64,000 bases of DNA from Ascidia mentula. Lineage: Eukaryota; Chordata; Ascidiacea; Phlebobranchia; Ascidiidae. Location of the stretch: positions 18,481,001-18,545,000 of the forward strand of contig OX387204.1 of NCBI GenBank assembly GCA_947561715.1, read 5' to 3'. Made by a program: the position numbers and the translations under genes. The notes below the pieces were generated by a model that saw only the letters and a program-made list of their open reading frames with translations, had not been told where the DNA came from and made no database searches. Positions 1 through 46,400 of this stretch are shown piece after piece (the first letter of the stretch is position 1; the number at the start of each line of letters is the position of its first letter).

Positions 1-3000
1 GCCTGTTGTTATAATTTGTTGAAAATACATTACAATTACAATGATTCAAAAAAGTTAAACAATGTCACTCATAGTGACTTACAGGTTGAACTATAACTTT
101 GACTTTGGCAGTATCTGACTGTTGGGCTTCATCGGTCACTGTCAGTTGAAAGGTGTATTCTCCAACTTCAAGGTTAGATAATTCCAAACACTTGCTTCTG
201 ACCCCCTGAAACAGACAAAACACGATAAATGATGTTGGAGGCTGTTGATAATGCTTAGAATAAAAACACAAGCAGAGTTGACTGTGATTGTAATGTTTTT
301 GTACAATTACGATTAGAATTCCAAAAAACACTGAAGAGATATTAGGAAATAACGGTTCCCATTAAAATGTTGGTTGCAAACAAAAAGATTTCATTAAATG
401 AGCAAATATAATTTACAAAATCAAATAATAATAATTTTATATGCTATACAAACACAATGATAAATTACTTTAAAGTACAATAGAATGTACATTAAATTAT
501 GGCAAATTATTAGTAGGACTGTATGTGTGTGCTTATTATGAGCCTAATAAGTGCTGACTACAATGCACAATGTACTTTGGCCCAAGCACAATTATTATCT
601 TGGTCAAAGTCCAATTACTGGTCATGAAGATATGAACTGTGTAATTTAAGCATTACTGGGTCTCCACTCAGTTGGGAAATTGGTCTTTCTTGTTTAACGT
701 CCACATATTCAAATAAAAACAACGTTTTACTAAATACTGAACACCCAAGTGTTCAACAGAAACATTTCTTGGTGTTGGTTGTGTTCTGTACTAGTACCAT
801 TATCCTGAGGAAGCCTTGTTGGATAACAGGCGAAACGTCGGTTAATAAAGTTACATTTTATTTAATTTAAACTATTTAATTAAAAATATTTACTGTTTTC
901 ATGTATTTTTTACAATGTAACAGATAAAAATACTGAATAATGAAAAGGTTGTAATTAAAGCAATGGCAGTGGAACTTTGGGGAAAGTTCTTTTAAAACTA
1001 AGATGTAAACAAATGGTAGAAGGTGGAAAACACAATATGTGGGCTTACAAGCGAAAGTGGTTGAAAACAAATAATTTTACCAGTCAAAAAATTTATTCAG
1101 ACCACACCACCCTGTCTATTCACGCTTCAGTGAGTATGGAGGTGTTTTTTATGCCTGAGCAAATTTTTAAGATCAATTATTTTTGCAGAAGCTTTGCAAA
1201 ATATAAAAGTTAACATTTGTCATATTGTTGTTATCAAGACTTTTTTTGACCTATATATGAAGTAATGCACATTTAAAACTAGATAAAATTGACAAAATTT
1301 GCCCTTATATTAATTCCATAAACTTTGTACATTTCAAGGGCATTACCTTTGCCTTTCCAATCTACACACACACACACGCTCGCAGACCTTTCCACTTTAA
1401 AGGTGACAGAACCAAAGCTGCATGTAAAGAAATTCTGCACAAACCTGTTGATCCACCACTTGGTTTTCACTTTCTTGAGCCACAGACCACTCATATGCTA
1501 CGATTCCCCAGTCATCGGTGCTGTCGTTTCCACATAAAGTAATGTGATTTTGAGGGAATTCGATTTTTTGGTTTGGGCCAGCATTTGCTATGGGAGGGTT
1601 GTCAATTTCTGAAAATATTTTTGTATATTTACAGTTTGTCTGAACTTGGGTTCTTGAAATAAGGAATTGCTTTTTCATCGTCCATACAAACAACTGAATG
1701 CATTATAAGAAAAGCAATAGCTCTTGCATAGTTTTTATTTACATTGTTAAGTTTTTTTATCTACATTGTGCAATTAAATTTAATGAAGCAAAAGGGCCAT
1801 AATGTTCATTCAACTACAGACAGGTGTGCACACACTGTGTTGACCTATAAAGTCTCGAACTTGATTCGTCTCCGTCGTTCAATTATGTGTACTCAACGAT
1901 CATTCCATTACAGAGTGGTAACATCTGTTTCAGGTTAGCCTAGTTTAGTGCAACTTTCACCAGCTAGACTAAAGGGACTTTGTACAGCAGAACAGTGTGT
2001 ACACTACTGTCAACAGCTCAATAAAACTTGCTCTTTCAGCACAAACAGATAAACAAATTGAAAATAAGAAAAGAAAATATTTTAAATCCAATTTAATTTT
2101 ATTCCAATTTTGATGTGAATGCAAAAAAATAATTTTTCGTAAACATGAGTTTCATAAATAATTGGCAGAAAACTTACTTTTGTTGACAATTATAGTTGCT
2201 TGTGTGGAGTTTGTGGCACCATCTGTATCGGTTACAGTGAGTTCAATTGTATAATTTCCAACCTGTAGATTTTTCAGTTGGAGAACCTGCAAGCATAAAT
2301 ATTAGTCACAAAAACTGAATGATTCAATTCGCAAACACATTTGTAAAAGTAAGTCAATTCATGAACAGAAAGCTATGACCAGTAATCAAAGATTGTATGT
2401 AGGACATTTTTTTTGGGAGTATGTTATATGCAACATAAGCCAAAGTATGTTTTCTATGATTTCAACCCTCTCTGCTGAAAAATTAAGAAGTTTTATCAAT
2501 GATACCTTTTCACTTCCTAGAGGTTCTCCAGTAGAAAGAACACTTTGTAAAGGAGCTTGCACCGGTTCCCAGTGATAGGAAACTATCTTCACATCGTCTG
2601 TAGATTCTGAAAGAAAATTTAGAAGCTTAATATTGTTGCGGATATTGCAGACAATCATGAACAACGGCATGTAAACACTGACAACAAGATATGTATATTA
2701 TAATATGTATTGTGTGAAGGCCGAATATCATTCACAAAACTACAAACAATTAGAAAACATATCTTTCAGCCAGTCTGACAAATGTTGGCACAAAAACATT
2801 TTTTGAACAAAAAAGCACTTCATTTGCATTTCGCAAAATTTCTAACTGTAAAAATGTACAAGCCAGACTTATGCAAACCTAGACAAATGGCCAAAATATG
2901 CACATCACTAGCTTACTTTGTCCATCCAGTAAAGCAGAATTAGTAGGAAGTGTAATTTCTTGATGTTTTGGTGATATTATTGCAACAGGGTGAGAGTTGA

Positions 3001-10413: not shown

Positions 10414-13400
10414 TTAAATGAAAGCGTAATAACTCAAGGCATGTCTGATTCTCTGTGCGGGGGAATCCCCCGAATTGTCCCATATTGAGCCCAAGTAGAG
10501 CGGACATTCGGATGCGTAACGACACGAGAGGGTACGGAGCATCTTACTGTGTTTCGACCGCCCGAGGGCAGACATGCGTTCTGGGGGCGTGGCGGAGGCG
10601 GTAACCACCGGGACTCCCTTGTTGGCGAGTTCTTGTGAAATGACAGAAAGCAGAAAATCTGAAATGCAGGCGTAAATGTCATCAAATATTCTGCATTTGT
10701 GTAAACCACAGTAAATTCGTGCTAATAGCCCAAATATCTCAAAGGGCGAGTATGCTCGGTCTGTAGGTAGTTCACTGAGTTTAAATATTGCTATGTTTAT
10801 ATTTGAAATAACTGAGCACTTACTGCTCGGCCTTGATAAAGGGGGAACATAACTCAGTAGCGCCACCACGACGGTGGGTATATTTCGTCGGTTTCCGGTA
10901 GATGGCAGCAGAACGTTTTGTGTCGTACATCTCAGGGCCCAGTCAAGCCAGAATCGTCCGCAGAGGTAAGGAAGGTTGTCAATCTGTTCAGCAAATAAAA
11001 AGTATTCGGATTTATAGTTTGGAATGTAACAAGATAAAAAACAAATGAATTTGAGCCCAAGAAATTCTGTTTTTTGTGCCCAAAGGTAGTTTACATGCAC
11101 AAACATGTGAAATACTAACCAAGGTGGTGAAAGTAAGCATTCCAAAAACGATTTAAAAGAAAAATAAGTATGTAAAATCGTATGTAAAAGCAACGAAATT
11201 ACCAAAAAAGCAACAAATATATTTAAACGAAGTAAAATCAAGAATTTCTGTAAAGACAAACATTAAACTTGCCTCGCTTGAAAACTTCTCATCCAAATCA
11301 GTGAAGTTTCGCATCAGATTAAGATTGCGTCCCGTTCTACTTTTGCAAACTCCGCTAATCATTTGAACCCCCACTCTTATCTTCATGCTTCCTTTAGTTT
11401 TCCAACCATCCGAGAAACTAACAAAAAAATGTTGATAAACTCAACGTGACGTAGTCACAATGTTTCAGCCACAAATGCAACTTTGAAACTCTTGAAATGT
11501 ACTTGGGTAACACTAAAGAAATGTGACGGAGCTTATAGGATAGAAGCAATCAACGAACGAGTATAAATAACCATGAAACAACCTTCAACCGAACACCAAT
11601 ACTTAAGGCATCTTTCACAAGAACTTAAAAACATCAAACTTATCCAACCTCTTGATGAACTCTCGCATCTTCCAATTAACGGGAGTCGTGACGTTGTTGA
11701 TAAATTCTGACGTCACCGGTACTTTTAAACCGTTTTTTTTTAAACTTTTGCAGTCGTCCACGTGGTCGGTGGAGTCGACGAGAAACAAAAAATCCATGAC
11801 GTCATCGCTTTTGCAAGCCGCGTCATCACTGCACGATTCGGAGCGTTCGTGGCACGCTTGAGTACCCACAGTGCCGTTGTCAAGACAACGTCGTTTGGAC
11901 ACGATTCGTCCGCCGCAGGGGGCGCTACAAGGCGCATCCGACCATTCTGACCAATTCTGGAGATTGAGAATTTATTATAATAGAGGATTTTTGGACAAGA
12001 TTAGCGAAATACATCGGATAACCACCTTGCATGTGCCCACATTGCACGATTCCTGCTCCTCGCTATCACCTTGACATTCTGACGTCACAGAGCATTTTCG
12101 CGATTTCGTTCTGTTACCCGGAGCACACTCTTCCGAACAGTGTGACCACTGCCCCCAATCTGACCATTGTGACGTCATTAGTCCGAAAAATGACGTCACT
12201 TTTCCTTCAATTGTGGAAGCTGCAGCCGAAGTTAGGATTTGTCTGCCATTTAAAGTAGTTGTTGTGGGTGCTGTTGTTGTTGTGAGTGCTGTTGTTGTTG
12301 TGGGTGCTGTTGTTGTTGTGGGTGTTGTTGTTGTTATGGGTGCTGTTATTGTTGTTGTTGTGGGTGCTGTTGTGGGTGCTGTTGTTGTTGTGGGTGCTGT
12401 TGTTGTTGTTGTGGGTGCTGTTGTTGTTGTGGGTGCTGTTGTTGTTGTGTGTGCTGTTGTTGTTGTGGGTGCTGTGGTTGTTGTGGGTGCTGTTGTTGTT
12501 GTGGCTGTTGTTGTTGTTGTTGTGGGTGCTGTTGCTGTTGTGGCTGTTGTTTTTGTGGCTGCTGTTGTTGTTGTGGCTGTTGTTGTTGTGGGTGCTGCTG
12601 TTGTTGTGGCTGTTGTTGTTGTGGGTGCTGTTGTTGTTGTTGTGGGTGCTGTGGTTGTGGTGGGTGCTGTTGTTGTTGTTGTGGGTGCTGTTGTTGTTGT
12701 GGGTGCTGTTGTTGTTGTGGGTGCTGTTGTTGTGGGTGCTGTTGTTGTTGTGGCTTTTGTTGTTGTGGGTGCTGTTGTTGTTGTGGCTGTTGTTGTTGTG
12801 GGTGCTGTTGTTGTTGTGGCTGTTGTTGTTGTGGCTGATGTTGTTGTGGCTGTTGTTGTTGTGGGTGCTGTTGTTGTTGGTTCTTCTGTGGGTGCAAAAG
12901 TTTCTGTAACCGCGGACGTTGCTGTTGTGGTTCTTGCCAATGTTGTTGTAGTTGCAGGTGTTGTTGTTCTCCTGGTTATAGTCGTCATTGTACTGGTTGT
13001 TATAGGAACCAGTGTGGTCTGCGTCACAAACGGAACAAATTTCTGTGTGGTTGGTTGTGTTGGTACCTTGCAAGTGACGCGAGGACATTTTTGTGTGACG
13101 GACGAACACATCGCAAACTCCCTTCTCTCCTTCTTAGTTCTCGCTCCTCCACCCAGCAAACAGTGTCTGGTTGACACTTGCACAGCCGTGACGTCACTGC
13201 AGTGATTAGGGCAAGGTCGTGGAATGGAGAAGGGACTCCATAACATGCACATGTGATGGTTACAAGGTCTGGTTTGCCAGCTGCGGGCGAAACTCGATGA
13301 AACTCCACGTCTTGAGCAGGCGTTTCCGTTCACAGGTGCTCCGCTTAACAAACATGGCCTGGTTCTGCAATTTCAAAACTCCTTGCCTTTTTTTCACTGA

Positions 13401-19341: not shown

Positions 19342-22300
19342 TTAAATGAAAGCGTAATAACTCAAGGCATGTCTGATTCTCTGCGCGGGGGAATCCCCCG
19401 AATTGTCCCATATTGAACCCAAGTAGAGCGGACATTCGGATGCGTAACGACACGAGAGGGTACGGAGCATCTCACTGTGTTTCGACCGCCCGAGGGCAGA
19501 CATGCGCTCTGGGGGCGTGGCGGAGGCGGTAATCACCGGGACTCCCTTGTTGGCGAGTTCTTGTGAAATGGCAGAAAGCAGAAAATCTGAAATGTAAGCG
19601 TGAACGTCATCAAAAATTCTGGAAGGTTGGGGCATGCGTAGACTAACTGACAACGATAGGGTCCTGACCGAACAAAGCAAACTTACTCATTGGAAAATAC
19701 CAGATATATAAGTTAATAATTTATGCAAAAAACAAATCTTAGAATTTATTGTGAGTTCTTGAAACTGCTCTGGAGTGTATTTTGAATAATTTAAAGCAAC
19801 CAATCATAGAGGTCAAATTGAGGTAGCCAAGATTGAGAAACGAAACCGTAGTTAATATTGTTGTATTGCTCTTGATGGTTTAAGGTACCAAGCAGGCCAA
19901 CATTTGTGCAAACCACAGTAAATTCGTGCTAATAGTCCAAATATCTCAAAGGGCGAGATATGCTCGGTCTGTAGGTAGTTTTCTGAGTTTAAATATTGTT
20001 ATGTTTATATTTGAAATAACTGAGCACTTACTGCTCGGCCTTGAAAAAGGGGGAACATAACTCAATAGCGCCACCACGACGGTGGGTACATTTGGTCGGC
20101 CTCCGGTAGATGGCAGCAGAACGTTTCGTGTCGTACATCTCAGGGCCCAGTCAAGCCAGAATCGTCCGCAGAGGTAAGGAAGGTTGTCAATCTGTTCAAC
20201 AAATGGAAAAGTATTCGGAATTTACAGTTTGGAATGTAACAAGATAAAAAACAAATGAATTTGTGCCCAAGAAATTCAGTTCAAAGGAAGTTTACATGGA
20301 CAAAAAAGTGATATAGTAACTAAGGTGGTGAAAGTTAGCATTCCAAAACAATTTAAAAGAAAATAAGTATGTAAAATCGTATGTAAAAGCAACGAAATTA
20401 CCAAAAAAGCAACAAATACATTTAAACGAAGTAAAATCAAGAATTTCTGTAAAGATAAAAATTAAACTTGCCTCGCTTGAAAACTGCTCATCCAAATCAG
20501 TGAAATTTCTCATAAGATTAAGATTGCGTCCCGTTCTACTTTTGCAAACTCCGCTAATCATTTGAACCGCCACTCTCGTCTTCATGCTTCCTTTAGTTTT
20601 CCAACCTTCCGAGAAACTAACAAAAAAATGTTGATAAACTCAACGTACTCACAAATGTTTCAGCCACAAATGCAACTTTGAAACCTTTGAAATGTACTTG
20701 GGTAACACTAAAGGAATGTGACGGAGCTTATAGGATAGAAGCAATGCAATCAACGAACGATTATAAATAACCATGGAACAACTTTCAACCGAACACCAAT
20801 GTTTAAGGCATCTTTCACAGGAAGTGAAAACAACAAACCTCTTAATGAACTCCCGCATCTTCCAATTAACAGGAGTCGTGACGTTGTTGATAAATTCTGA
20901 CGTCACCGGTACTTTTGAACCTTTCTTTTGCAAACTTTTGCAGTCGTCCACGTGATCGGTGGAGTCGACCAGAAACAGAAAATCCATGACGTCATCGCCT
21001 TTGCAAGCCGCGTCATCACTGCACGATTCGGAGCGTTCGTGGCACGCTTGAGTACCCATAGTGCCGTTGTCAAGACAACGTCGTTTGGACACGATTTGTC
21101 CGCCGCAGGGGGCGCTACAGGGCGCATCTGACCATTCTGACCAATTCTAGAGGTTGAGAAATTTATCATAATAGAGGGTTTTTAGACAAGATTAGCGAAA
21201 TACATCGAATAAACCACCTTGCATGTGCCCACATTGCACGATTCCTGCTCCTCGCTATCACCTTGACATTCTGACGTCACAGAGCATTTTCTCGATCTCG
21301 TTCTGTTGCCTGGAGCACACTCATCCGAACATTGTGACCACTGCCCCCAATCTGACCATTGTGACGTCACAGCGGGGGTGGGACAATATGAGGAACACCG
21401 TAGCGACTTCTTGTGACATTTTTCGTCTCCTGAAAAAGTGTGAAAATGACACACGCTGTACTATATATACCGCAAATATAATATAGCAAAAGTGAAAATT
21501 ACAGAGATACTTTTGACGCATAATTCACAACAAATCACCGTAAAAAATAACAACTGATTTTAACAATCACGTTTCCTAACCATGCCCACGTACCTTTATC
21601 GTTCACTTCAATTTTGCAATCACGAGTCAGGTTTCGGGTCGCTGTCTTCAAACGGTTGTCGATAATCTCACAATCTTCCAGACAGAATGTCGGACCCCAA
21701 CTCGCCCACATCGGACACAGGTGGCTGTTGCAACGTCTCTCGTCTCTCACTTTGTCCATTGCGCAATCACTGACGTTGTGACTGACGTCATTGCCGTAAC
21801 TGGGAAAAGTTTACAGAGCAATTACAAAGTTATACCTAAACCTAATTTTTTTCCACATAATTTTGTTCATAAACAAATTATTATAGCAGACCATGACAAA
21901 CACAATGGATCTTAAAGGAGTAAATCTTCACCGAAATCAAATACACACTTTCCAGTACATTAATTCACTCACCCATCGTAACAGCTTTTAAATCTAGTCT
22001 GGATTCCCGGCCCGCAAGAACGAGAACAAGGTGACCAATTACTCCAGGAATACGTCATTTTGGGTGATGCCACTGGCATCGAAGCTGATTGGGTCCTCGT
22101 AGTAGTTGACGGAGTAGAAGCTGACGTCAATAGTCCGAAAAATGACGTCACTTTTCCTTCAATTGAGGAAGCTGCGGCCGAAGTTAGGATCTGTCTGCTA
22201 TTTAAAGTAGTTGTTGTATGTACTGTGGTTGTTGTGGGTGCTGTTGTTGTTGTATGTACTGTGGTTGTTGTCGGTGCTGTTGTTGTTGTTGTGGGTGCTG

Positions 22301-25300
22301 TTGTTGTTGTTGTGGCTGTTGTTGTTGTGGGTGCTGTTGTTGTTGTTGTGGCTGTTGTTGTTGTGGGTGCTGTTGTTGTTGTTGTGGCTGTTGTTGTTGC
22401 AAGTTTTGTTGTTGTGGGTGCAGTTGTTGTTGGTTTTTCTGTGGGTGCAAAAGTTTCTGTAACCGCGGACGTTGCTGTTGTTGTTCTTGCCAATGTTGTT
22501 GTAGTTACAGGTGTTGTTGTTCTTGCCAATGTTGTTGTAGTTACAGGTGTTGTTGTTCTCCTGGTTGTGGTCGCCATTGTACTGGTTATTATGGGAACCA
22601 GTGTGGTCTGCGTCACAAACGGAACAAATCTCTGTGTGGTTGGTTGTGTTGGTACCTTGCAAGTGACGCGAGGACAGTTTTGTGTGACGGACGAACACAT
22701 CGCAAACTCCCTCCTCTCCTTCTCAGTTCTCGCTCCTCCACCCAGCAAACAGTGTCTGGTTGACACTCGCACAGCCGCGACGTCACTGCAGTGATTGGGG
22801 CAAGGTCGTGGAATGGAGAAGGGACTCCATAACATGCACATGTGATGGTTACAAGGTCTGGTTTGCCAGCTGCGGGCGAAACTCAATGAAACTCCACGTC
22901 TTGAGCAAGCGTTTCCGTTCACAGGTGCTCCGCTTAACAAACATGGCCTGGTTCTGTAATTAGAAAACTCCTTGCCTTTTTTTCACTAATTGATTCTATA
23001 GTTACTATATCGCAAACGTTGAAATGCAAAACTTATTTAAGATGACTCTGTTTTAGATGTGAAGAATTGTGATAGGGATGAAGCAAGCGAGATTTTCATT
23101 AAAATTTTAGTTACCGTGGGTTTCGATTTCAAATGATTCGAAATCAACAAAAATCATTTCAATGTTCATGAGTTTGCCCAGAAAACATGCTTTGATAAAG
23201 ATACAACAATGGATTGATACAAAAGGTTGTACAACATATTGAAATTTGGCAAGACAGAGTTGTTGGTTTTGCTTCGCGTTTCCCTCCCGGGAGTTTAAAC
23301 ACTGATTTTAATCTTTCCAGCACAAACCTGTGAGTTACACCGCGATCACATCTGGATGAACATCCTCCCCATGAACTCCAACTACCCCAGTTAGCAGTCG
23401 ATATAACAGGACACGCAGGTGTGGTACATTTCCTTATTACGGTCGAACACAAATTGTTTCCAATGTTTCCGGAAGTTAAACAACGCCTGTGGGATATTGA
23501 AGTGTTATTGGAAGTACAAAGTAACTTGTGAGGGGAGAAGCAAGCAAGCCTTATAAGGAAGGCACAGGGTGTTCGCTTAAGTTATAAACATTGCATGTTT
23601 CAAACTCTGGTCATTAACAGTTCTTATAAACATTATTCTGTCTAAAATACAATTTGTGCGATAAATTCTCAAACAGTCAGTTACTTAATATGTTCAAAGT
23701 GACGATGTAGAAGTGTATTATGCTGCCTAATGCTATATGTACATATATAACCAAGTAGGCGAAGTATATTAAAATAGGTTGCGCATATTTTACAAAATAT
23801 TTGGATGAATGTCGTGCACTCAAATTATTGTTGAAAACAACGTTGCGAAATACAGTGTAAAATATTTAGGGGAGTTAAATTTACTCCTTCCCGCAGATGT
23901 TACCTGGTTGCGTAAATTCTCCCTTCGCCACCGCACGTCTTAAAACAAGCTCCGAATTCCGCCCACAAACCCCACGCTTGGCAGAGATGAGAGTTACATG
24001 AATTTGTTTCGGTGTCGAGGCTTTGGCCACAAAATTGTGAAAGAATTGGACGCTCTGCAAAAATAAGACGCGTCCTCATGAAGTTTTTGTGATTTTCTGT
24101 CTCGTTTGTGAGTTTCACGGTTCTTTAACATGGATTTTTTTTCATCCTCAAGAATGTAAGGAAGTTTTGTTTTCAAGTCTTACAAATAGACACAAATAAT
24201 TATTTGTAATCAGTATCTTGAGGGCGTTCACAACCATAGAAAACAACAAAATATCGTCCAGTAATTTATCATGACTTCACCTCTTCTCAAACATTGTCGC
24301 CTTCTTGTGCGAGATCCCGGCGAACAAGTTTGTGAGCAAGCTCCCCAGGGCCCCCATGCGGACCACCTTACAAAATCACGATCTCCGCTGTTTGACGCTG
24401 CAGTGCTGACAAGTTCAGATTGTTCGTTTGCCGGCCGGAAGAATCGGGCTACAAAGTTTTACTTTTTCTTTTGTATTTATATTCAAGCACGGATAAACAA
24501 ACACGAAAGATTTTTGATAAATTTCAACATAGTTTTTGGCCAAATCCAAAACAGTCCAACAACATGTTGACACAAAACCAACTTTCCTATATCTTGATGC
24601 GTACCGCAAGAAACATTGTTGATCTAACATAAATACATTTATGTAACTATCACGATCAACATATTATTGTTAAATCTTCTACAAGGCGAGTAATAAGCTA
24701 ACTGTAACCAACAACGTCACTTTGATGTTATAACCATAACAAACACAATAAAATCTTAACCTGTGGCTCTGTAGCAACGAGGCGTACTCCTGTAGTCATA
24801 GCAACATCCAGCACGATGACAAGCGTATTTGTGTAAAAACCCGCAGTTTTGGCGTTGCAGAAGCGGAATCTCACATTTCTTTTCCGCGCAATCACCTGAA
24901 AAAATTATCGACGTTAATCCTTCCAAACTAGCAGGGTTCGTTCGATGACCCGCGCAAGTCGTTTAGACAAAACTGCTACAATCTTATATGCAGTAAAAGC
25001 TAATTTGTGGGAACTATTTCAAACTGGTGTTGGTGTTGCTCTAAAATGCGATGATCAAAACTTATTATTGAAAAATTTTGGAGAACTTACATTAACTCCG
25101 AATTCACACAAACTTTTCTCAATGAATGTTAAAAAAGGCCTAAAACGCCTTAATTCAACAGTTAACTTATGTATCAAAGAAAGTCTTGCTTGAGCTAAAA
25201 TCCGAAAAGATGAAAATATAAAATTTACTCGAAATTATGAGTAATATTTTTACACCTGTTGCCTGGAAACATCTGGGCGCAATAGAGAAAAAGAATACGC

Positions 25301-28773: not shown

Positions 28774-28858
28774 CTTTCGACGCTAAATGTAAAGTTTGTA
28801 CTGCTTATCAAGTTTATGAACATTAATATAATGCAACATATATAAGTGACCGGATGAA
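28774..28858. promoter_or_regulatory. Short bidirectional promoter region
   Basis: Only 85 bp separate the start codons of the small minus-strand gene and GTPBP3, so both promoters must overlap or extend into the genes. CATATATAAG near 28838 is TATA-like and close to the GTPBP3 start. Confidence 0.4.
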
Positions 28859-30370
28859 ATGAATAGGAGAGTACGGTGTTTGACTGGAATTTTTTTACTA
28901 TCTAAATCCCACGCTTATTCCGCAATTACGCATTTAAAATGGATAGACAAGATTAAGTGTGTAAGGTACTATACTGCGACACATTTGGGCACAATATACG
29001 CCCATTCGTCTGGGTTTGGAAAGTGTGGTGTTGCTGTCATAAGAATTTCGGGCAGCGAAACAATTTCAGCCTTGTCAAAGATCACGAAAAGGAACAAACT
29101 TCCTGCCCCAAAGCAGGTGTTTGTATCACGACTGTGGCACCCCAAGACTGAAGTCATGTTGGACAGAGCTGTTGTGTTTTGGTTTTCTGCCCCAAGTAGC
29201 TTTACCGGTGAAGACATGTGTGAATTCCAAGTGCATGGTGGGCCTGCTGTAATCACATCAGTGCTTGATGCATTGTCAACAATTAAAGGCTTGAGGCCAG
29301 CTGAGGCTGGTGATTTTACCAAGCGGGCATTTCTTAACGACAAACTTGATTTAACTGAGGTTGAAGGGTTGGGTGATCTGATTCATGCAGAGACGGAAGG
29401 ACAAAGGAGACAGGCTGTTCACCAAATGGAAGGCTCTCTAAGCTCCCTCTACAAAAACTGGACTAATAAAGTTGTGAAAAACATGGCACATTGTGAGGCA
29501 TTCATAGACTTTGGCGAAGACCAACATTTGGGTGATCAAGTACTTAGCAATGTTGTAACAGAAATAAAAAGTGTCAAAGCTAAAATCGATGACCATCTGC
29601 ATGACTCTCATCGTGGAGAAAGGTTGCGAAATGGTGTAAGGATTTGCATAGCTGGGCAGCCAAACGTTGGAAAAAGTACTTTGTTAAACTTAATCACTCA
29701 GAGACAAGCGGCAATTGTGTCACCAATTGCTGGAACAACACGAGATGTAATTGAAACTGCCCTGGATATTGATGGTTTCCCAGTCTTGATGAGTGATACA
29801 GCTGGTCTTCGACACAGTGAGGATGTGATTGAAAAGGAAGGGGTTGCAAGAGCTTTGCAGAAGATTCAGGATGCGGACTTGGTTATTTTTCTCCTATCAT
29901 CTGAGCAGTTAATCACACATAAAAACAATATTGCTGGATTAATTGAAAAGCAAACTCAAAATCTGGGTATCGATAATGATTTAAAAGGAAAACAAGTCCT
30001 GACAGTCGTAAACAAGACTGACTTAAATAAGATCGAAAAACAGTGTGCCAGTGAAAATGTTCTGTATATATCGTGTAAAAGTATGAGTGGAATCAGTGAG
30101 TTTCTTAAAATTCTGTCATCCCATATCAAAAACTTGTGTGGTGGCGCTTCTGTTGGAAGCATTCCAAGCATCACCCAACAAAGACACCGCATGCATTTGC
30201 AGGAGTGCAGCCAACATCTGCAACAAGCCATAGAATCCTTCGATCTGGATGTTGTAATTGCTGCTGAATATATGAGAATGTCTTTAAGTGAACTTGGAAA
30301 AATATCGGGAAAAGTTGATGCAGAGGAAATTCTTGATGTAATATTTCAAGACTTTTGCATTGGTAAATAA
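28859..30370 (+). CDS. GTPBP3: tRNA modification GTPase GTPBP3 (MnmE family), mitochondrial
   Basis: Single-exon frame of 503 residues, about the family's usual length. With MTO1, GTPBP3/MnmE makes the taurinomethyl or carboxymethylaminomethyl modification of U34 in mitochondrial tRNAs. A basic, hydroxyl-rich N-terminus suits mitochondrial import. The TrmE N-terminal domain begins near residue 44 (TIYAHSSGFGKCGVAVIRISG, with PSSFTGEDMCEFQVHGG). The G domain has GQPNVGKST (about 265-273), the switch around TTRDV, DTAGL (about 313) and NKTD (about 384). The C-terminus is FCIGK, the conserved MnmE C[ILV]GK end that carries the catalytic cysteine. All key residues are present. GPN3 follows 178 bp downstream on the same strand. 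Confidence 0.97.
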   Translation: MNRRVRCLTGIFLLSKSHAYSAITHLKWIDKIKCVRYYTATHLGTIYAHSSGFGKCGVAVIRISGSETISALSKITKRNKLPAPKQVFVSRLWHPKTEVMLDRAVVFWFSAPSSFTGEDMCEFQVHGGPAVITSVLDALSTIKGLRPAEAGDFTKRAFLNDKLDLTEVEGLGDLIHAETEGQRRQAVHQMEGSLSSLYKNWTNKVVKNMAHCEAFIDFGEDQHLGDQVLSNVVTEIKSVKAKIDDHLHDSHRGERLRNGVRICIAGQPNVGKSTLLNLITQRQAAIVSPIAGTTRDVIETALDIDGFPVLMSDTAGLRHSEDVIEKEGVARALQKIQDADLVIFLLSSEQLITHKNNIAGLIEKQTQNLGIDNDLKGKQVLTVVNKTDLNKIEKQCASENVLYISCKSMSGISEFLKILSSHIKNLCGGASVGSIPSITQQRHRMHLQECSQHLQQAIESFDLDVVIAAEYMRMSLSELGKISGKVDAEEILDVIFQDFCIGK

Positions 30371-30464
30371 CAGCAACTGCTGAAGATCTTTACTAATGCC
30401 GATATCATGTGAAAATATAACTATGAACCAGTTATTATGTAACATTGCATGACATGAACTACAC

Positions 30465-30484
30465 AATTATGGTTGTTTTTTCAG
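30465..30484 (+). promoter_or_regulatory. Possible spliced-leader acceptor ahead of GPN3
   Basis: A pyrimidine-rich tract ending GTTGTTTTTTCAG lies between the GTPBP3 stop and the GPN3 start, 64 bp before the GPN3 ATG. There is no obvious matching donor close upstream. In tunicates this is the arrangement expected for trans-splicing of a downstream operon gene; an ordinary 5' UTR intron is the alternative. Confidence 0.4.
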
Positions 30485-30547
30485 GTTAATAAGAAAACTT
30501 TTCATAAAAGATATTAGGTTTATGAAATACAAATAGGTCTCGCTGCA

Positions 30548-31357
30548 ATGCCCAAATATGCCCAAATCATTATGGGGCCAGCTGGTTCTGGTAAAAGCAC
30601 ATACTGTGCTACTATGGCAGAGCATTTTAAAGCCCTAAAAAGACGGTGCTTCATTGTAAACCTTGATCCTGCTGCTGAGGACTTTAAATACGCAGTAGCA
30701 GCTGATGTAAGGGATCTTATCCAGTTGGATGATGTCATGGAGGATAAGGAACTGCATTTTGGGCCTAACGGTGGTCTCGTTTTTTGTATGGAGTACATTA
30801 TAAAGAATCTTTCTTGGTTGGAGGATAGTCTTGAGGCTGGAGAGGATGATTATTTTATTTTTGATTGTCCCGGACAGATAGAACTTTACAACCACCTCCC
30901 TGTTATGAGACAGCTCACAGAAGCTTTGCAGTCATGGGATTTTCGTTTGTGTGGAGTTTTCTTGGTAGATTCACAGTTTCTCGGGGAGTCGAGCAAGTTT
31001 GTTTCTGGGGTGTTGTCCTCACTTTCCTGTATGATTAACATGGAAATACCCCACATTAGCATTATGACCAAAGTTGACTTGTTGCCTAAAAAGTCGAAGA
31101 AAAAACTTAGGGAATACCTTGATCCAAATATGTTGTCATTAGCAGAAACTACTCAACATCACAGTGAAAAGTATGTCAAGTTGACTGAAATGATTTGTCA
31201 GTTAATAGATGATTATTCTATGGTTAGGTTTCTGGCCTTTGACCAAAGTGATGAAGATTCAATAAACATTGCATTACAAAATATTGATATGGCTTTGCAG
31301 TATGGTGAAGATTTGGAAGTCCAAGTCAGAGACTTTGGAAATGATGAAAATGATTGA
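30548..31357 (+). CDS. GPN3: GPN-loop GTPase 3
   Basis: Single-exon frame of 269 residues, close to the vertebrate length, though it lacks most of the acidic vertebrate tail. GPN3 pairs with GPN1 in assembly and nuclear import of RNA polymerases II and III. The P-loop is [10 protein letters not shown] (residues 9-18), the diagnostic GPN loop is at residues 72-74 in [14 protein letters not shown], the G3 motif is DCPGQIE (from residue 106), and the G4 motif TKVD is at 174-177. DDYSMVRFL and QYGEDLEV near the end match the family. It lies between GTPBP3 and METTL16, 121 bp from the latter. Confidence 0.97.
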
Positions 31358-31458
31358 AATATTTTATTTGAAGATTGTCTCAAATCAAATTTCACTATTG
31401 AAATGTTTTTCATGGTTTTGTTGTCATATTATTAAACTAAACAAAAACGGTAATTAAA

Positions 31459-31478
31459 TTGTATGTTTTCTGTTTTAG
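31459..31478 (+). promoter_or_regulatory. Possible spliced-leader acceptor directly at the METTL16 start
   Basis: The tract TATGTTTTCTGTTTTAG ends exactly at the METTL16 ATG (31479), leaving no native 5' UTR. An ATTAAA about 45 bp earlier could be the GPN3 poly(A) signal. Poly(A) signal, short gap, then acceptor touching the ATG is what a trans-spliced operon junction looks like. Confidence 0.5.
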
Positions 31479-32804
31479 ATGGCTCTTAATAAGTTCATGC
31501 ACCCTAAAAACAGATACAAAGAAAATCCCCCAGACTTTGATGGTTTGGCTGAAGAATTTCCAAATTTTAAAAAGCATGCACAACATTCAAGAAATGGAAA
31601 GGCTTTTGTTAATTTCAGAAATGCAAATGTTGTTCGAGAATTGGCGATATGTTTGTTGAAAAAAGATTTTCAACTGGATGTGTTGTTACCAAATGATAGA
31701 CTTGCTCCAACTATTCCATCAAGACTCAACTATATTTTGTGGGTCCAGGATTTAGTTTGTTGTCTTCCAAGTCAGGATTCTTATAGTATTTTGGATATTG
31801 GATGTGGTAGTTCGTGTGTGTATCCACTATTGGGGGTGCGGCTAAACAAAAGTTGGAACTTTCTAGCAAGCGAAATAGACGAAAAAAACTTTCTTTGTGC
31901 GCAAGACAACGTGCGCAGAAACAACTTGTCCGAAAAGATTTTGCTGCACCAAGTGGCTGAAAATGACAAAATATTTTCACCGTTAGGTGACGCAGTCTAC
32001 ATAGACGCTTGCATGTGTAATCCGCCGTTTTTCACCTCCAAACAAGATGTTGTCACTGGATTGCAGCGACCAAGTGCAAACTCATCTTGTTCTGGTCACG
32101 AAAAGGAAATGATTCGAGATGAAGGCGGTGATCTGGGTTTCGCAGAAAAACTTTTCACTGAAAGCTTGGAGGTTCGTAAACGCGTGAAGTGGTTTACGAC
32201 CATGTTTGGAAAAAAGTCAAGCTTTGTATGTTTTCAAAAGAAATTAGAAAGTCGCGATGTACCAGTAAAGACATATACGGAATTTTGCCAAGGTAAAACA
32301 ATGCGATGGGCTGTGGCATGGTCGCATTTCAGTAATATTGACGTCCAAACTTTGCCTCTGTCACAATTCCAGCAAGAAAAACTGCAAAAAAGTAGCAAAA
32401 AGATTCATTTTAAATCCAAATTTGTTGAAGTTACCGAAGTAAAAAACGCACTTTCTCTAGTTTTAAACAAATTAAGTTTAAGTTTTACGCTTGAAGGCGA
32501 CGAGGATCTCCAGTTTGAATTTTTGACAAGGAAATCTGATTGGACAAACAGCAGAAGAAAACGACGAATGAAAATGTTTGGTGATAAAAATGAAAAAACT
32601 TTGTGCAACGCCGAGAGAAAGTTGATTTCTAAGTCTGTGCACGACAGTTTTGATAACGACGGTCAAATAGGAAGCGATTTACAATTTCAATGCCGCCTAA
32701 CTATTTCGTCTACAACAAGTGGAATAGAAGTAACTGTATCCTCTTGTCCTTTCTTAAAAGATGAAATCAACACAATCGCAGTTTATTTAAAAGGAAAAAT
32801 TTGA
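31479..32804 (+). CDS. METTL16: METTL16-type RNA N6-adenosine methyltransferase
   Basis: Single-exon frame of 441 residues (human about 560). METTL16 methylates adenosines in U6 snRNA and MAT2A hairpins. The start MALNKFMHPKNRYKENPPDF is nearly that of vertebrates and carries the basic N-terminal RNA-binding segment. A Rossmann methyltransferase follows, with ILDIGCGSSCVYPLLG as the SAM-binding loop and the catalytic CNPPFF (Asn181-Phe184). TYTEFCQGKTMRWAVAWS is another family hallmark. The C-terminal part (from about residue 300) is divergent but includes the basic stretch SRRKRRMKMF and likely covers the vertebrate-conserved region. The acceptor at 31478 suggests it is expressed with GPN3. 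Confidence 0.96.
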   Translation: MALNKFMHPKNRYKENPPDFDGLAEEFPNFKKHAQHSRNGKAFVNFRNANVVRELAICLLKKDFQLDVLLPNDRLAPTIPSRLNYILWVQDLVCCLPSQDSYSILDIGCGSSCVYPLLGVRLNKSWNFLASEIDEKNFLCAQDNVRRNNLSEKILLHQVAENDKIFSPLGDAVYIDACMCNPPFFTSKQDVVTGLQRPSANSSCSGHEKEMIRDEGGDLGFAEKLFTESLEVRKRVKWFTTMFGKKSSFVCFQKKLESRDVPVKTYTEFCQGKTMRWAVAWSHFSNIDVQTLPLSQFQQEKLQKSSKKIHFKSKFVEVTEVKNALSLVLNKLSLSFTLEGDEDLQFEFLTRKSDWTNSRRKRRMKMFGDKNEKTLCNAERKLISKSVHDSFDNDGQIGSDLQFQCRLTISSTTSGIEVTVSSCPFLKDEINTIAVYLKGKI

Positions 32805-40400: not shown

Positions 40401-43400
40401 CTTATCAGACGTGCCAAGCTAATCCACCGAATGACGTGAGATGTGCTTGAATGAATAAATGCGGTGACGATTAATATAAGCTTGCTGACTCACCTAACCA
40501 TCATGTGTTCATCATGGTAACCGGAACTTATTCTTTTCCGCCCTGTCTTGACCGTTGAACAACAACCACAATACTTCCTGATAACATTTCCTATCCCTAT
40601 TATGGTTCGCCTTTCTTGACAGGCTCAACTCAACCAGACAAACCCTCGAAAGAGTTTTCTGGCCAGAAGTCGCCAGCAGAGTTGGAAACCGTGCTGAGCA
40701 AAAAGGAGGAATGGGGTTGGATGAAAAGTGAGGATTGGGTCAAGTGTTGGGACGTTGCTGCTTTACAAGTCGTCATCACTTACACGTGGCATCCCGTGTA
40801 CATGAAAACACCAACGATTTCTCACAAAGAATCGAACCTAAAAAGGTTCGTGTCCCAAATATGTGGTTGGTTTAAAACCCTAGGGTGATTTTTATAGCTG
40901 GCATGAGTCAGGTATTTCTAACAGTATATCTTGCTGTTTATCTGGTGGTATTGCTTTTGTACCACAAGTCCATCGTATCGCCTGAATAACGCAAACCTTA
41001 CTCCTATTTTTCTTGCCCATATGATGTAAGTATCATCTTTAAGATCCCCCTAGTGCAGTGATGTCCACACAGGTTTCCTTTGTAACTTGCATGGGTGTCG
41101 CGAGCTTTTTTCCGTTCATTCACAATGGAAATTTATGTTGTATTTCTGGTAATATTACGATGCGGGCGTTTGTTGATTACCCGAATGGTTGCCTTTTGTG
41201 TTTTGGTGGGTGCCGTTAGCCATGAAGGGTTGTTGGTTCGAATCTCACCACAAGTGACATACTAGGCTATTTTATGTTTATTTGTTATATTCTTTTGCAG
41301 GATGCACTCTGTGGCATCGGGAACAGAATCTGTGGAAAATATCACCAAGAAACCTTTGACCTCAAGGACTCGCACCAAAACCGGAGTGACCTTTGACCCG
41401 ACCACGTTGGAAGCGGATGAGATCAGAGTAGATCTCCTGATGGCGCCCGGTTCCACATTGTATCTCTATGGATCGCTGCTTGACCTTCTTATCATGATCA
41501 AGGTGACGATAACACGATACTTATCGACACTCTGTTGTGTCATGACTTCGTAAACTTGTACTTGTTTGACCGCATTCGATCCACGTGATCGGTTTTTCTT
41601 GTTTTATGGCAACAGAGATCCAGGAATAATTGAGTTTTTCACAGGAAAACTACTTCGGGTATGATGACGTGTACACCGACTTTTCGAACGGAGTCAACAA
41701 ACCCGCGGATTCCGATTCCAAAGAGGTTTCCATGGAAACAGAGAACCTCCTCAACTTCCGGTGAATGTTTCGCTTTAAAAATCCCCATCATGTCACGTGA
41801 CAATAAAAGAAGGGCTGAAATTTATTCGAAAACATTTTGCTTGGTGTGGAAACGACTCTGGTGATATTGTTTCCACGCGGGGTTGCTTTGCCGCTACCTT
41901 TTTTTTCAATTGGAAATTTCCCTGACATTAAATAATACCCGCTTTGCGATTAAATATTACGCGCGATGTGCATGTCCACCTCCCCTAACATTAATTATTT
42001 AAAACCTTGTGTCATAAATATTCGATAACCTGATAATTGGCCGGTAGGTGGGGCTAGCACGATGGTTCGTTAAAATCTTACCAATCCAAACAGACGAAAT
42101 CTAAACAAATAATAAAACAACATGACCAAGTTTAATGCAGTGGACGCTAAAATGAAGCTCCCGGTGAGGTTTGAACTCACAACCTCAGGCTAACCTCTCC
42201 CTGCACAGCGGTTTCACGGGGCATATTGTGGTTAACATGCAATCAGACAACGCAGTAATGTTTCAGAGGTAAAATCTCACCGGGAGCTTGAATTTTCAGA
42301 TCTCGCTCCGACTTGCCAGGAAAAAGTGGCTGATCCAGCTTGACTGCAATGCCTGTAAACCTAATGATATCGATACGATAGCTTCTTATTGTTATTTCTG
42401 ATAACAAACTAAATATCATCTCATATTTCATGCTTGCCGCTTTGCGTGTTGCTTCCAGGCCTCTCCAGGTTACTCTGGACATCAATCTATCCGATATCAA
42501 CGGTGTTCTTCCCATTCACCCCACACCGGTGTTACACTCACCACCAAAAGTGAAACTTCAAAAACTTACCTTCGAAATGGACAAGAATTACCACCAGACC
42601 AGACTCCAGGTAAAGTACAGTTTTCGAGGTTTTAAGACGTAATATATTGTGTTAGGTATACACAGTCGCGGTATCTAGTTTGCAATAACAAAACTACTTG
42701 AGCTAGCATGTGCCACGGTCACCAGCTGCACTGATGAGACTTTACAGGTCGAAACAGTGTGTACACCTGTCTGCAAAACTACTTGAATTTATTAAAAAAG
42801 AGCCAGAAAAACAGATAAAAAGGCGTATAAATGTGTACTGCTGTTCGCGTGAGGCGTAGTTTAATTTTCAAACCTGACCTTCTGCTACACAAATTACCGT
42901 AGATTGTTTTCAACTGACGTCTGTCATTAGCGAGACTTCCATCAGAGTTTATGATGTAACATTTCAAACATGTTCACAACACACAGAAAAACGTAAAAAA
43001 GGGACAACGCCGGTACCGCTTGCAGCGCTACAAAAAATGCTGCCGGCATTTTTTTTTGTGCCAAAAATGAAGTTGTTTTAGGAATTCACCGTGATTAAAA
43101 AGCTCATGCTCCACTCTGAAATATCGTGCGTTAAAACATTTCATTTATTTTTTACCCCCTGTTGGTCATCCAACACATATTCCACTCCACACTCTGACCA
43201 TCACCGTTATTGCTCCAGCTCCTACTCTCCAAACTCGACATCCGCACTTCCGACTGCCTCGTGCGCTCAAACGAAGGGGAAGTCCCCATCGCTGAAGGTC
43301 ACATCGTGTTGCATGACCTTCAACTCCGGGGTCACGCCATGTTCAGTGGCAACGGATTGCCAATTGGGGCCACGCTCATCGAGTACGCCTGGCTTACTGA

Positions 43401-46400
43401 GGTCCTTGTTGGCCCGGTGGAGGGCAGATTCTCAATTCCACAAGTAAGTTTAACAGCAGATGCTGCAGAAGCAGGGGTGGATTCCAGAGGGGGGAATAGG
43501 GTGCCCCCCAGAATATGTCACAGCACTAAAAACGCTGTCGTGTCAGGCAAAAGGGGTTACCTCAATTTTCATTTTTGTTCATTATATTAACATGTTTTTG
43601 TCTGGCGCAAAGCTTTTTTGTCCAGCGCCTAAAATTTCTAACAGTGCGTTACGATTTACTTTAAATATTGTTTCCCAATACTCTTTTTTTATAATATTGT
43701 ATTAAAATTTTTCAAAAAAGAGCAGATTGTCAGTTTGCAAATTTTACCTGTTTGAAAAACTTCTCGGAAATTGACCGTTTTTTTCAGATACAAGCAATGG
43801 TGAACTGGGCTCAGACTTTTATCTATCTTCTTAAAAATACCGAACATAAATTGAACGCTGCGTTTCCGGGGAGAACGTTGCCAACCGGGATTACATGGGA
43901 ATACAAGAAGAAGGTAGCACTTTCAACTTTTCATGTGAACACCTGTTTTTGACACATTAAGCAATTCTCACAACGATTCAAGGTTTTTTCGGGACTTTAA
44001 GCAATCTGTGCAAAAAAAAAGAAAATTTTTGAGCAAAAATTAAAAAAAAAAATGACTCTTGTTTTCTTAATGTTGAATTTTAGCAAAACCCATTTTTTAT
44101 TTTCAATGAAAACTTGTTTCGCTTAAAAGAAGCAACGTCGATTCTAAAGTTAATTGTTTCACGAAAATATTGTTGTTGCGTCACAATAGGACGGGAGCAT
44201 CATCGACGAAACTGATGTCAAGTATCTGATGTCACGAATACGCGTCGATGACGTCCACCTGCAAGTGACCGAAGGCAGCACGTTGCTTGACGTCACGGTC
44301 GCCCCGGTGATGGTTGCTAATGGCAACGTGCAGGAGAGGGGCGTGTTGGAGGCGGTTTCAGCGGTGATCGAAGATGTCCAAGTCAGGCAGAGAGTTCGAA
44401 TAAACGGTTTGTGCGGAAACTGTTGTAGGAGTTTCGTGCAAAACTGAATTCGATTGAGTAAACTTGAATTAGGAAGCCATAGCTAGAATGGTGAACATAC
44501 TGAGCAGACGTTGCAAACACGACCTGTGTGTTCATCATCAGTGCTTACTAAATGACTGGTTGGTTCGACTGTGTTCACACCAGCAGTCGTCAGATTGTTT
44601 GTTGGAGTTGCTTTTAAAGGTCTTTACTGAAGTCACATATCACAGTGGCATTAAAGGTTTGGCTTGATCAAAACCCTTTGTTATCTGAAATCAAATTTCA
44701 CAAGATAAAAATTTTTACTTAATCGACTCTGACGTGCCAGGAATGCCGAGGGTCATGAGTTCAAACCTCACTGGAAGTGTGCGTTTTACGTGTTCCAAAA
44801 TGTCCCAAGTTATAATCCTACTAAATTGCAAATACTTTCACCTCAGTGATGAGTTCCTGCTCCACAGATAAAGTGGATGAGTGGTTGGACGCCGGCGAAA
44901 TCGGTTTCGGTCCGCTGATCGCGCAAGTTACCATGGCAACCGACGAACACAAGTTGAACGACCTCCAGGAAGATTTCCTCAAGTTTCACGACCGGAAAAC
45001 TCGACGTCTCGACTTTCTGTGGGAGGTTGGCGGAGTTTTTAGCGTGGATTAAAATCCCGTGACTTAAAATATTAAAACCTTTGTAATTCATCTTTATGTA
45101 AGTTAAAAATTAAAGGCAGGGGAATCCCCGGGTTGCTTTGTGGCCGACTTTGTATCGGATAATTTTTAACTTGCTTCATGCAAAAAGTTCTGCCAGTGAC
45201 TGGGGCCGTTTCCACTGATATTTATATTTCGTTTACTTACAGGCAAAGGTGTTTTGACCTGCTTCGTATTTTCAGCGATATTGATGCTGCATAAAAGTAG
45301 TTAAAATATAAATATCCGTATAATCGAAGATGTTATGTGAGCTGCGTAACCACGTGTTTGACAAAATAATCAGTGATAAATATTCGTGAGGCGAAAAACA
45401 TCTTTCCCATAAAGCCTACATATCCTCATTGTACAACGTATCTATAGGCATAAAAACTCTGTAATTAAAAACATAAACAACTTTCGGTGTACTTCCGCCA
45501 GAGCGCGGATGAATCTCTAACGCGGAGGACAAGTTCCGGTGTGACGTCATTGATCGATGGCGTTCGAAGCATGAAGTCATGGGGTTGTTCGTTCTTTACC
45601 CCCCTCACAACCAAACATCCAACATTTTTCTACAACCAGCAACAACAGAAGGCTAACAAACCCATCTCTCAATACGTCAGCGCAGTTGATGACGTCACCG
45701 ATATGGTGGGGGGTACTTTTGATGACGAAGACGTTTTCGATGCGGGAATGGATTTTGGTATGTCTTGTGATAATACCTTGTCCATATAAAGTATCGTTGA
45801 GAATGTATAGGATCCAATATTTGCATGGACTTTGCTACTTTAAAGTGTTTCTGCATTAGGCGAATACACAGTGTGTGTTCATTGTACAGGACTCACAAAT
45901 TGTAATTAAACCGAAATAAAAAATGTCATTTTGTGTTGAGTACCCATGGCCGAATACAAAGCATTTGGCCCCGGGTTTACTTGAAACCAGTGTAAAGAAA
46001 CATGCAGTAATATTTGTATTTCAGGGATGAGTTTGCTTGTTCACGGTCGAAAGTTGTTGGCGAGAAGTTTGATCCAAACTAGCGACAAAGTGGACAGAGG
46101 AATTAACCCAGAACAACCCGACTCAAAACCTAGACCTGTTTCATTAAACTTTGAGAGGGTTAAAATCCCTGCTGGAGTCGCACTGATGAGTGGAATGGAT
46201 GAGAGGCGAACTTCTCTGCGCGGCGGGAAGTTGATGAAGATGAAAAAATCGTCCTCCGTTGATACATACAAGAGATCCACAGAATCGAATCTTTATTGTT
46301 CCGCGGAGTCAGACTTCAAGAGCACCTCCACCCTCAGTTCCGGAGCTTATTTCTCTGCTGAGTCGGATGTAGAGGAAGATACTTCATCCCCATCCTCCAA

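Follow-up and report, generated by a model that had tools for sequence, protein, structure and literature searches.

A hammerhead insert in a BLTP1 intron of Ascidia mentula points to a retrozyme family with Penelope-like insertion marks

The insert and its host intron

We analyzed 64,000 nucleotides (nt) of Ascidia mentula DNA (GenBank assembly GCA_947561715.1, contig OX387204.1, positions 18,481,001 to 18,545,000 of the forward strand), referred to here as the window, in which an intron of the BLTP1 gene carries a short insert with a hammerhead ribozyme. The exon preceding the intron (42460 to 42609, plus strand) matches positions 810 to 859 of the BLTP1_N profile (20.1 bits, E value of 1.4e-4), and the next exon (43219 to 43443, plus strand) matches positions 860 to 934 (52.4 bits, E value of 2.4e-14); both matches lie under the model's whole-protein cutoff, as expected of single exons. 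Since the flanking exons match consecutive stretches of the profile, the intron comprises 42610 to 43218 (plus strand, 609 nt), with GT at 42610 and AG at 43217 to 43218. The insert lies in it in the sense orientation, as had been proposed in an initial annotation of this DNA.

The insert (42702 to 42773, plus strand; 72 bp) was recognized from genome matches, the family match covering 42701 to 42775, and is a 5'-truncated copy of a retrozyme. Sequence comparison placed an exact 13-bp direct repeat, CAAAACTACTTGA, on both sides of it, forming the left (42689 to 42701) and the right (42774 to 42786) target-site duplication. The 3' end of the insert holds a type I hammerhead (42727 to 42775, plus strand; predicted cleavage after C42771) in which every core position is intact, and target DNA starts right after TGCA. 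On this strand, the 5' strand of helix I (TGCA, 42727 to 42730) is partnered with 42772 to 42775, the CUGAUGA core (CTGATGA in the DNA) lies at 42731 to 42737, the GAAA core lies at 42751 to 42754, and helix III (ACAG/CTGT, 42754 to 42770) encloses the inner palindrome GTGTACAC. The initial annotation had described the core, the direct repeat, and helices I and III in the same way. Helix II, to which it had assigned three pairs, has four (GACU-UUACA-GGUC, 42738 to 42750), one of them a G-U pair owing to the U at 42741, where most of the aligned copies have C.

The assignment rested on the core and helices, a strict scan, and subthreshold Rfam matches. The scan (CUGAUGA/GAAA core, helices I and III of 4 bp, helix II of at least 3 bp) detected one type I site on the plus strand of the window and none on the minus strand, and found none on the plus strand of 200 mononucleotide shuffles. 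The Rfam covariance check that had been proposed for the motif gave no match in the window at the gathering threshold. Below that threshold, the best match in the window was Hammerhead_3 (42713 to 42760, 23.2 bits, E value of 0.0054), which reads the same core as type III in another register and with several nonpairs, while the type I register, 42727 to 42775, was matched by RAGATH-1-hammerhead (19.4 bits, E value of 0.35). The covariance model R1, which was applied to the window and to two further loci (L105 and L115), also matches the window hammerhead, the window copy being part of the R1 training set. The hammerhead in the window is established by its copies in the genome, which outweigh the negative check; Rfam alone would not have sufficed.

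In full copies, helix I has 7 bp (AGCUGCA/UGCAGCU) and is followed by an internal loop and then a 4-bp outer stem. Since target DNA directly follows TGCA in the window copy, only four of the seven helix I pairs are left there. Folding predictions that included flanks of 30 nt gave the hammerhead a share of 0.19 for the copy at L108, 0.29 for that at L008, and 5.7e-6 for the window copy; these values ignore tertiary contacts and protein help and so rank the copies rather than measure their activity. The entire hammerhead appears in the minimum-energy folds of the L108 and L008 copies but not in the fold of the L030 copy, whose core is altered. The earlier description of the window motif as complete-looking thus holds for its core and is too strong for its helix I and its predicted fold. 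Because helix I is shortened and the predicted share falls so far, efficient cleavage in BLTP1 RNA from this copy seems unlikely. Retention of the hammerhead to regulate BLTP1 RNA would agree with the sense orientation within the intron and with the intact core; the insert is, however, a copy of a dispersed repeat, and its shortened helix I and low predicted share likewise make a regulatory role highly improbable.

A dispersed family with tandem units

We searched the genome assembly (79 contigs with a total of 196 Mb; nine of those encountered were 15 to 28 Mb long) for relatives of the insert. The 75-bp stretch from 42701 to 42775 recurs, giving 44 matches (best 40 of 961 candidates scored) and, in a repeat search, 43 matches (best 40 of 974 candidates scored), and other genome copies extend past both of its ends. 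The 41-nt hammerhead of the window subfamily was present at 187 places with at most three mismatches, 28 of them exact, and the reversed control at none. The 30 nt immediately downstream of the ribozyme occurred at 373 places, which points to a second subfamily, and the 51-nt hammerhead of the latter at 706 places (reversed control, 0). Because all of the 100 places listed of these 706 were exact, the second subfamily is apparently the younger one.

The length of the unit was evident from the spacing of its copies. Hammerheads lie 292 to 295 bp apart in L106, L107, L108, and L110 and 293 to 295 or 588 bp apart among the places listed; L106 has a Tandem Repeats Finder period of 295 and tails 298 and 295 bp apart, and L030 contains two direct hammerhead copies at a spacing of 291 bp. 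Several contiguous copies are longer than one unit. The L108 unit has 293 nt and a GC content of 47.4%; in a tandem trimer of this unit, the one examined, the longest stop-free run is 70 amino acids, and 67% of the bases are paired when the unit is folded as a circle. Judging from these sequences, we take the family to be a noncoding retrozyme without long terminal repeats (non-LTR), with a unit of 291 to 298 nt, a type I hammerhead, and hundreds of copies. The tandem copies and flanking direct repeats for which a genome search had been suggested in the initial annotation were thus both found, the latter as described below.

The alignment of 30 copies was used to assess the conservation of the helices. 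Paired cells amounted to 94.0%. The outer closing pair was G-C in 12, G-U in 4, and U-A in 1 (L060) of the 25 window-type rows, the window row included, and unpaired in the other 8, while in the second subfamily it was A-U in four of five rows and G-U in one L106 unit. The covariation score was 0.075, compared with 0.055 in shuffled alignments (2 of 500 shuffles reached the observed value) and at most 0.034 when the pairing was slid, and three pairs had changed on both sides, compared with 1.4 expected (34 of 500 shuffles reached three). Among 24 aligned copies of the window subfamily, substitutions numbered 11/312 in the core, 52/911 in the stems, 32/646 in other positions, and 10/312 in the 3' stretch. 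We do not claim selection, since the rates of the core and the rest were not clearly different and the copies had been found via the core.

Subthreshold matches to RF00008 and RF03152 were obtained in the window and in L106 to L110, and the latter loci also remained under the Rfam hammerhead gathering scores. Matches to MIR169_8, MIR161, mir-458, and mir-50 in L109 and L110 were below the gathering scores and lay on inverted arms; they were not taken as microRNAs.

Ends, target duplications, and paired arms

For the analysis of insertion ends, 104 loci were merged into 87 stretches containing 91 clusters of family arms, among which L003 to L005, a single event with alike flanks in three duplicated stretches, were counted three times. 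Target duplications of at least 8 bp were present in 27 of the 91 clusters, compared with 0.8 when flanks were re-paired, and those of at least 11 bp in 20, compared with 0.2. For 29 duplications (25 distinct ones of at least 8 bp and 4 young ones read by eye), the median length was 12 bp, a value raised by the cut, and the GC content was 27.8%, compared with 38.8% in the window. Clear target duplications span 7 to 15 bp. The window insertion and L003 to L005 have similar duplications (AAAAnTACTTG), which may reflect a target preference or chance.

The window copy begins 69 nt before the cleavage site, ends 2 to 4 nt after it, and has no inverted partner. A complete, compact mobile unit with its own ribozyme, as the 72-bp segment had been interpreted in the initial annotation, would be in keeping with the intact core and the 13-bp duplication, and the insertion in L003 to L005 is similarly short (88 bp), ends near TGCA, and has an 11- to 13-bp duplication. 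Related copies, however, run past both ends of the segment into one repeat of 291 to 298 nt, the 5' ends of the arms are scattered over the whole unit, and only the window's arm, of 149, has both borders within 4 nt of positions 273 to 347. Moreover, the insertion boundary cuts helix I. We therefore consider a compact unit of this kind hardly tenable and, on sequence grounds, regard the window copy as a solo insertion, truncated at its 5' end and short at its 3' side, which ends close to the lower limit of the site A range defined below. The window insert itself is ordinary.

The 128 outer 3' ends, counted from the cleavage site with duplicates included, clustered at two positions about 28 to 29 nt apart. 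Of these ends, 39 lay at +11 to +14 (site A) and 35 at +39 to +42 (site B); further ends lay at +18 to +36 (11 ends), +15 (3 ends), +43 to +47 (5 ends), and -3 (1 end). In 37 of the 91 clusters, a 3' end was located at both outer borders, i.e., the arms were head to head. After deduplication, 35 pairs were available, of which 32 combined A with B, 2 were A+A, and 1 was B+B, whereas 17.7 mixed pairs were expected (permutation P value of 5e-6).

The 35 pairs consisted of 30 from the clusters, remaining after exclusions, and 5 from the second subfamily (L109 and L111 to L114). Excluded were L098, L023, and L089, with an end outside the bins, and, as duplicates, L037 and L038 as well as L078, L080, and L045 to L047 (right end at -64); the copies L048 and L077 on contig C69 were counted once. 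L107 and L110, whose second end lies beyond the fetched stretch, and L106 and L108, which have no inverted pair, were left out. L111 to L114, chosen by position only as 4 of the 10 minus/plus neighbors among the exact hammerheads, were all A+B, with duplications of 9, 7, about 11, and 12 bp as read by eye. The window also holds a decayed second copy of the family, whose left arm (1792 to 1881, minus strand; 32.3 bits with R1) and right arm (1947 to 2035, plus strand; 28.3 bits with R1) form a head-to-head pair.

The same arrangement prevailed among near neighbors. Hammerheads less than 1 kb apart, among the 100 listed of 706 places, formed 10 head-to-head, 3 and 1 same-strand (for the two strands), and no tail-to-tail combinations; matches to the GIY-YIG endonuclease domain within 6 kb of each other (121 places) formed 17 head-to-head, 5 and 1 same-strand, and no tail-to-tail combinations. 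One orientation rule holds for both the retrozymes and the Penelope-like elements.

Inversions at 5' ends are known from long interspersed nuclear elements (LINEs), and in twin priming the end of the inverted arm varies among internal sites, with no overlap between the two arms on the RNA. The retrozyme could be moved by a LINE, its inverted pairs being products of L1-type twin priming; truncated 5' ends and roughly 12-bp duplications of the target would be compatible with target-primed reverse transcription. Here, unlike in twin priming, both outer ends are mostly at fixed sites, and in 33 of 44 adjacent arm pairs at least 10 nt of element positions are common to both arms, an overlap which is not decisive, as a circular or multimeric template would also produce it. 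Judged from the ends and arms of the copies, mobilization by a LINE seems unlikely.

Template RNA and mobilization

The ribozyme cleavage site was crossed by 125 of the 149 arms, which are favored by detection via the hammerhead, and only L019 and L085 started at it. These crossing arms, together with the copies exceeding one unit, suggest that the templates, at least for copies of these two kinds, were uncleaved multimers or ligated circles, both of which fit the data. Linear monomers released by hammerhead cleavage are, by the same counts, not favored as the main template, a case limited by the fact that run-off arms primed at A, with a length of about 12 nt, would escape detection. Both L019 (41 nt) and L085 (33 nt) are short B arms, as expected from run-off at the 5' end of a cleaved RNA.

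GIY-YIG matches number at least 121 in the genome, and 19 of these fall within open frames no shorter than 732 amino acids. L105 (C67:6144000-6146700) is one Penelope-like repeat with a reverse transcriptase domain from an array with a 2,870-bp period. In the array (C67:6134028-6146916), two GIY-YIG copies on one strand face three on the other, and long open frames are present. A CTGACGA...GCGAAAG stretch near positions 226 to 265 of L105 is predicted to fold like a minimal hammerhead.

Two published elements offer a close comparison. In an anole Penelope-like element, reverse transcription begins at two neighboring internal positions, a feature tied to an optional 30- to 40-bp tail; the target is cut and extended on both strands, with a preference for AT-rich DNA, and hammerhead cleavage is dispensable in vitro (PMC11167929). 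For a rotifer Penelope-like element, PMC3846280 describes duplications of 8 to 10 bp and a tail of 31 bp that is present on one of the inverted pLTRs; among inverted arrangements, head to head is the commonest. The two end sites, the AT-rich duplications of about 12 bp, and the head-to-head pairs seen here show the same tail architecture and are candidate evidence for mobilization by Penelope-like elements.

It is likely, in our view, that the retrozyme family is moved by a Penelope-like protein and that the window insert is one of its 5'-truncated copies. As to the mobilizing enzyme, the form of the RNA, and the activity of the ribozyme, we infer the following course. Multimeric or circular retrozyme RNA would serve as a template for a Penelope-like protein with reverse transcriptase and GIY-YIG endonuclease domains, and this protein would make staggered cuts in AT-rich DNA, offset by about 12 nt. 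Reverse transcription would start inside the RNA, at site A (mostly 11 to 14 nt past the cleavage site) or site B (mostly 39 to 42 nt past it). Extension of both DNA ends, usually one from A and the other from B, would yield cDNAs that meet head to head, whereas extension of a single DNA end would leave a solo 5'-truncated copy; the window copy, ending at +2 to +4, may be of this kind. More tentatively, Penelope-like proteins may act as an asymmetric pair, so that at a staggered cut one DNA end primes at A and the other at B. The one-sided tail could then be a trace of two differently placed reverse transcriptases, with RNA circles made by the hammerhead as their templates; we hold this extension to be possible, without committing to it.

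Several observations weigh against mobilization by a Penelope-like protein or weaken the counts on which it draws. The covariation support is modest, coming mostly from a single pair that is missing from 8 of 30 rows, and from subfamily structure. No Penelope-like element with sequence in common with the retrozyme was found; L105, the only such element read, has no convincing R1 match (best E value of 0.31, minus strand). In vitro, reverse transcription starts equally on both strands (PMC11167929), while the pair rule found here implies asymmetry, and for head-to-head arms PMC3846280 favors self-priming on an antisense template. As the copies were found through the hammerhead, arms lacking it are undercounted. 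Of the 128 ends, 20 lay at 0 to +9 and 14 upstream of -3, the latter largely from damaged or duplicated copies, and ends defined by BLAST are fuzzy by a few nucleotides. The A and B bins were chosen with the data already known, as was the decision to drop pairs with an end outside them; deduplication was done by hand, and one end of L109 was moved by eye from +51 to +57, within the same bin.

Finally, no duplication of at least 8 bp was found in 64 of the 91 clusters. This count would also suit an origin of the copies as filler DNA captured at breaks without dedicated machinery, and head-to-head fragments do arise in break repair. The preferred 3' ends and the A+B rule speak against filler DNA, as do exact duplications far above the level of re-paired flanks, and we rate such an origin as very unlikely.

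Relation to known elements

With the metazoan non-LTR retrozymes, as characterized in the accessible parts of PMC7229834, the family shares the type I hammerhead, tandem repeats of 150 to 450 bp, the noncoding nature, a GC content below 50%, target duplications of more than 4 bp, many copies, and the coexistence with Penelope-like elements. The tandem trait is present at the level of the family; the window copy itself is a 72-bp fragment without it. The fetched copies are mainly 5'-truncated solos or head-to-head pairs with two 3' ends, whereas the same parts of PMC7229834 present tandem repeats, with no rule of this kind for the ends. Neither "tunicate" nor "ascidia" nor "ciona" occurs in the main text of that article. 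In the tunicate Didemnum vexillum, nine type I hammerhead loci are annotated, the element context not being given in the accessible parts of that source (PMC8704543). Neither end signatures of retrozyme insertions nor tunicate retrozymes were found among the titles and opening lines of abstracts listed from open-licence literature.

With the Penelope/Poseidon type (PMC11167929 and the available portions of PMC3846280), the family shares an optional tail of about 30 nt on one of two inverted ends, head-to-head arms, a similar duplication length, and an AT-rich target. In the anole element, the hammerhead is located at the start of the open reading frame, upstream of the reverse transcription start sites (PMC11167929). 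Penelope-like elements encode a reverse transcriptase and a GIY-YIG endonuclease; a long reading frame is absent from the retrozyme unit. Its full copies have a helix III of at least 4 bp besides the 7-bp helix I, while the hammerheads of Penelope-like elements are minimal variants according to the accessible sections of PMC7761336. The core is like that of Rfam families RF00008, RF00163, and RF03152; all the matches obtained here were below gathering scores, and that of RF00008 in the window was in another register. The retrozyme resembles a Penelope-like element at insertion and is not one.

Penelope-like elements have been put forward as strong candidates for the movers of metazoan retrozymes on the basis of shared type I hammerheads, tandem arrangement, and coexistence, as stated in PMC7229834; a 2020 review notes that metazoan retrozymes lack any conserved motif from which the mobilizing retrotransposon could be identified (PMC7761336). 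The present family provides hundreds of copies with readable ends, duplications, and arm orientation, and those read look like Penelope-like insertions. From its sequence, the family is to be added to the metazoan retrozymes as a new member, one that bears Penelope-like insertion marks. The initial annotation, which had connected the insert with retrozymes and Penelope-like elements, was correct in its observation and partly supported in its interpretation. The question of the mobilizer can now be put to the test with a single purified protein and a single RNA of 293 nt. To this the A+B rule adds a statement on priming that is absent from the literature compared, as far as the accessible parts of it extend.

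Other observations

A viral contig (IMGVR_UViG_3300023210_000042 in IMG/VR; L115, 7216 to 9991, minus strand) has four hammerhead-like R1 matches on one strand, 0.5 to 1.4 kb apart. One of these matches, with 25 bases identical to the retrozyme hammerhead, fits Hammerhead_1 and RAGATH-1-hammerhead below threshold and was not taken as a relative.

Elsewhere in the window, the plus strand carries a close group of three open frames (28850 to 32804); the first is GTPBP3, and the second and third resemble GPN3 and METTL16. Their tight spacing could reflect an ascidian operon. The GTPBP3-like protein is 74% identical to that of Phallusia mammillata, with Ciona and Clavelina fifth and sixth among the 120 hits listed. 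Two near-duplicate frames (11975 to 13372 and 21969 to 22982, both minus strand) contain long threonine-rich repeats, and the stretches beside these repeats in both frames are presumably thrombospondin-like. Outside the window, a COX1 match with five in-frame TGA codons was found at G000:C79:4437-5774, on a contig that is probably mitochondrial.

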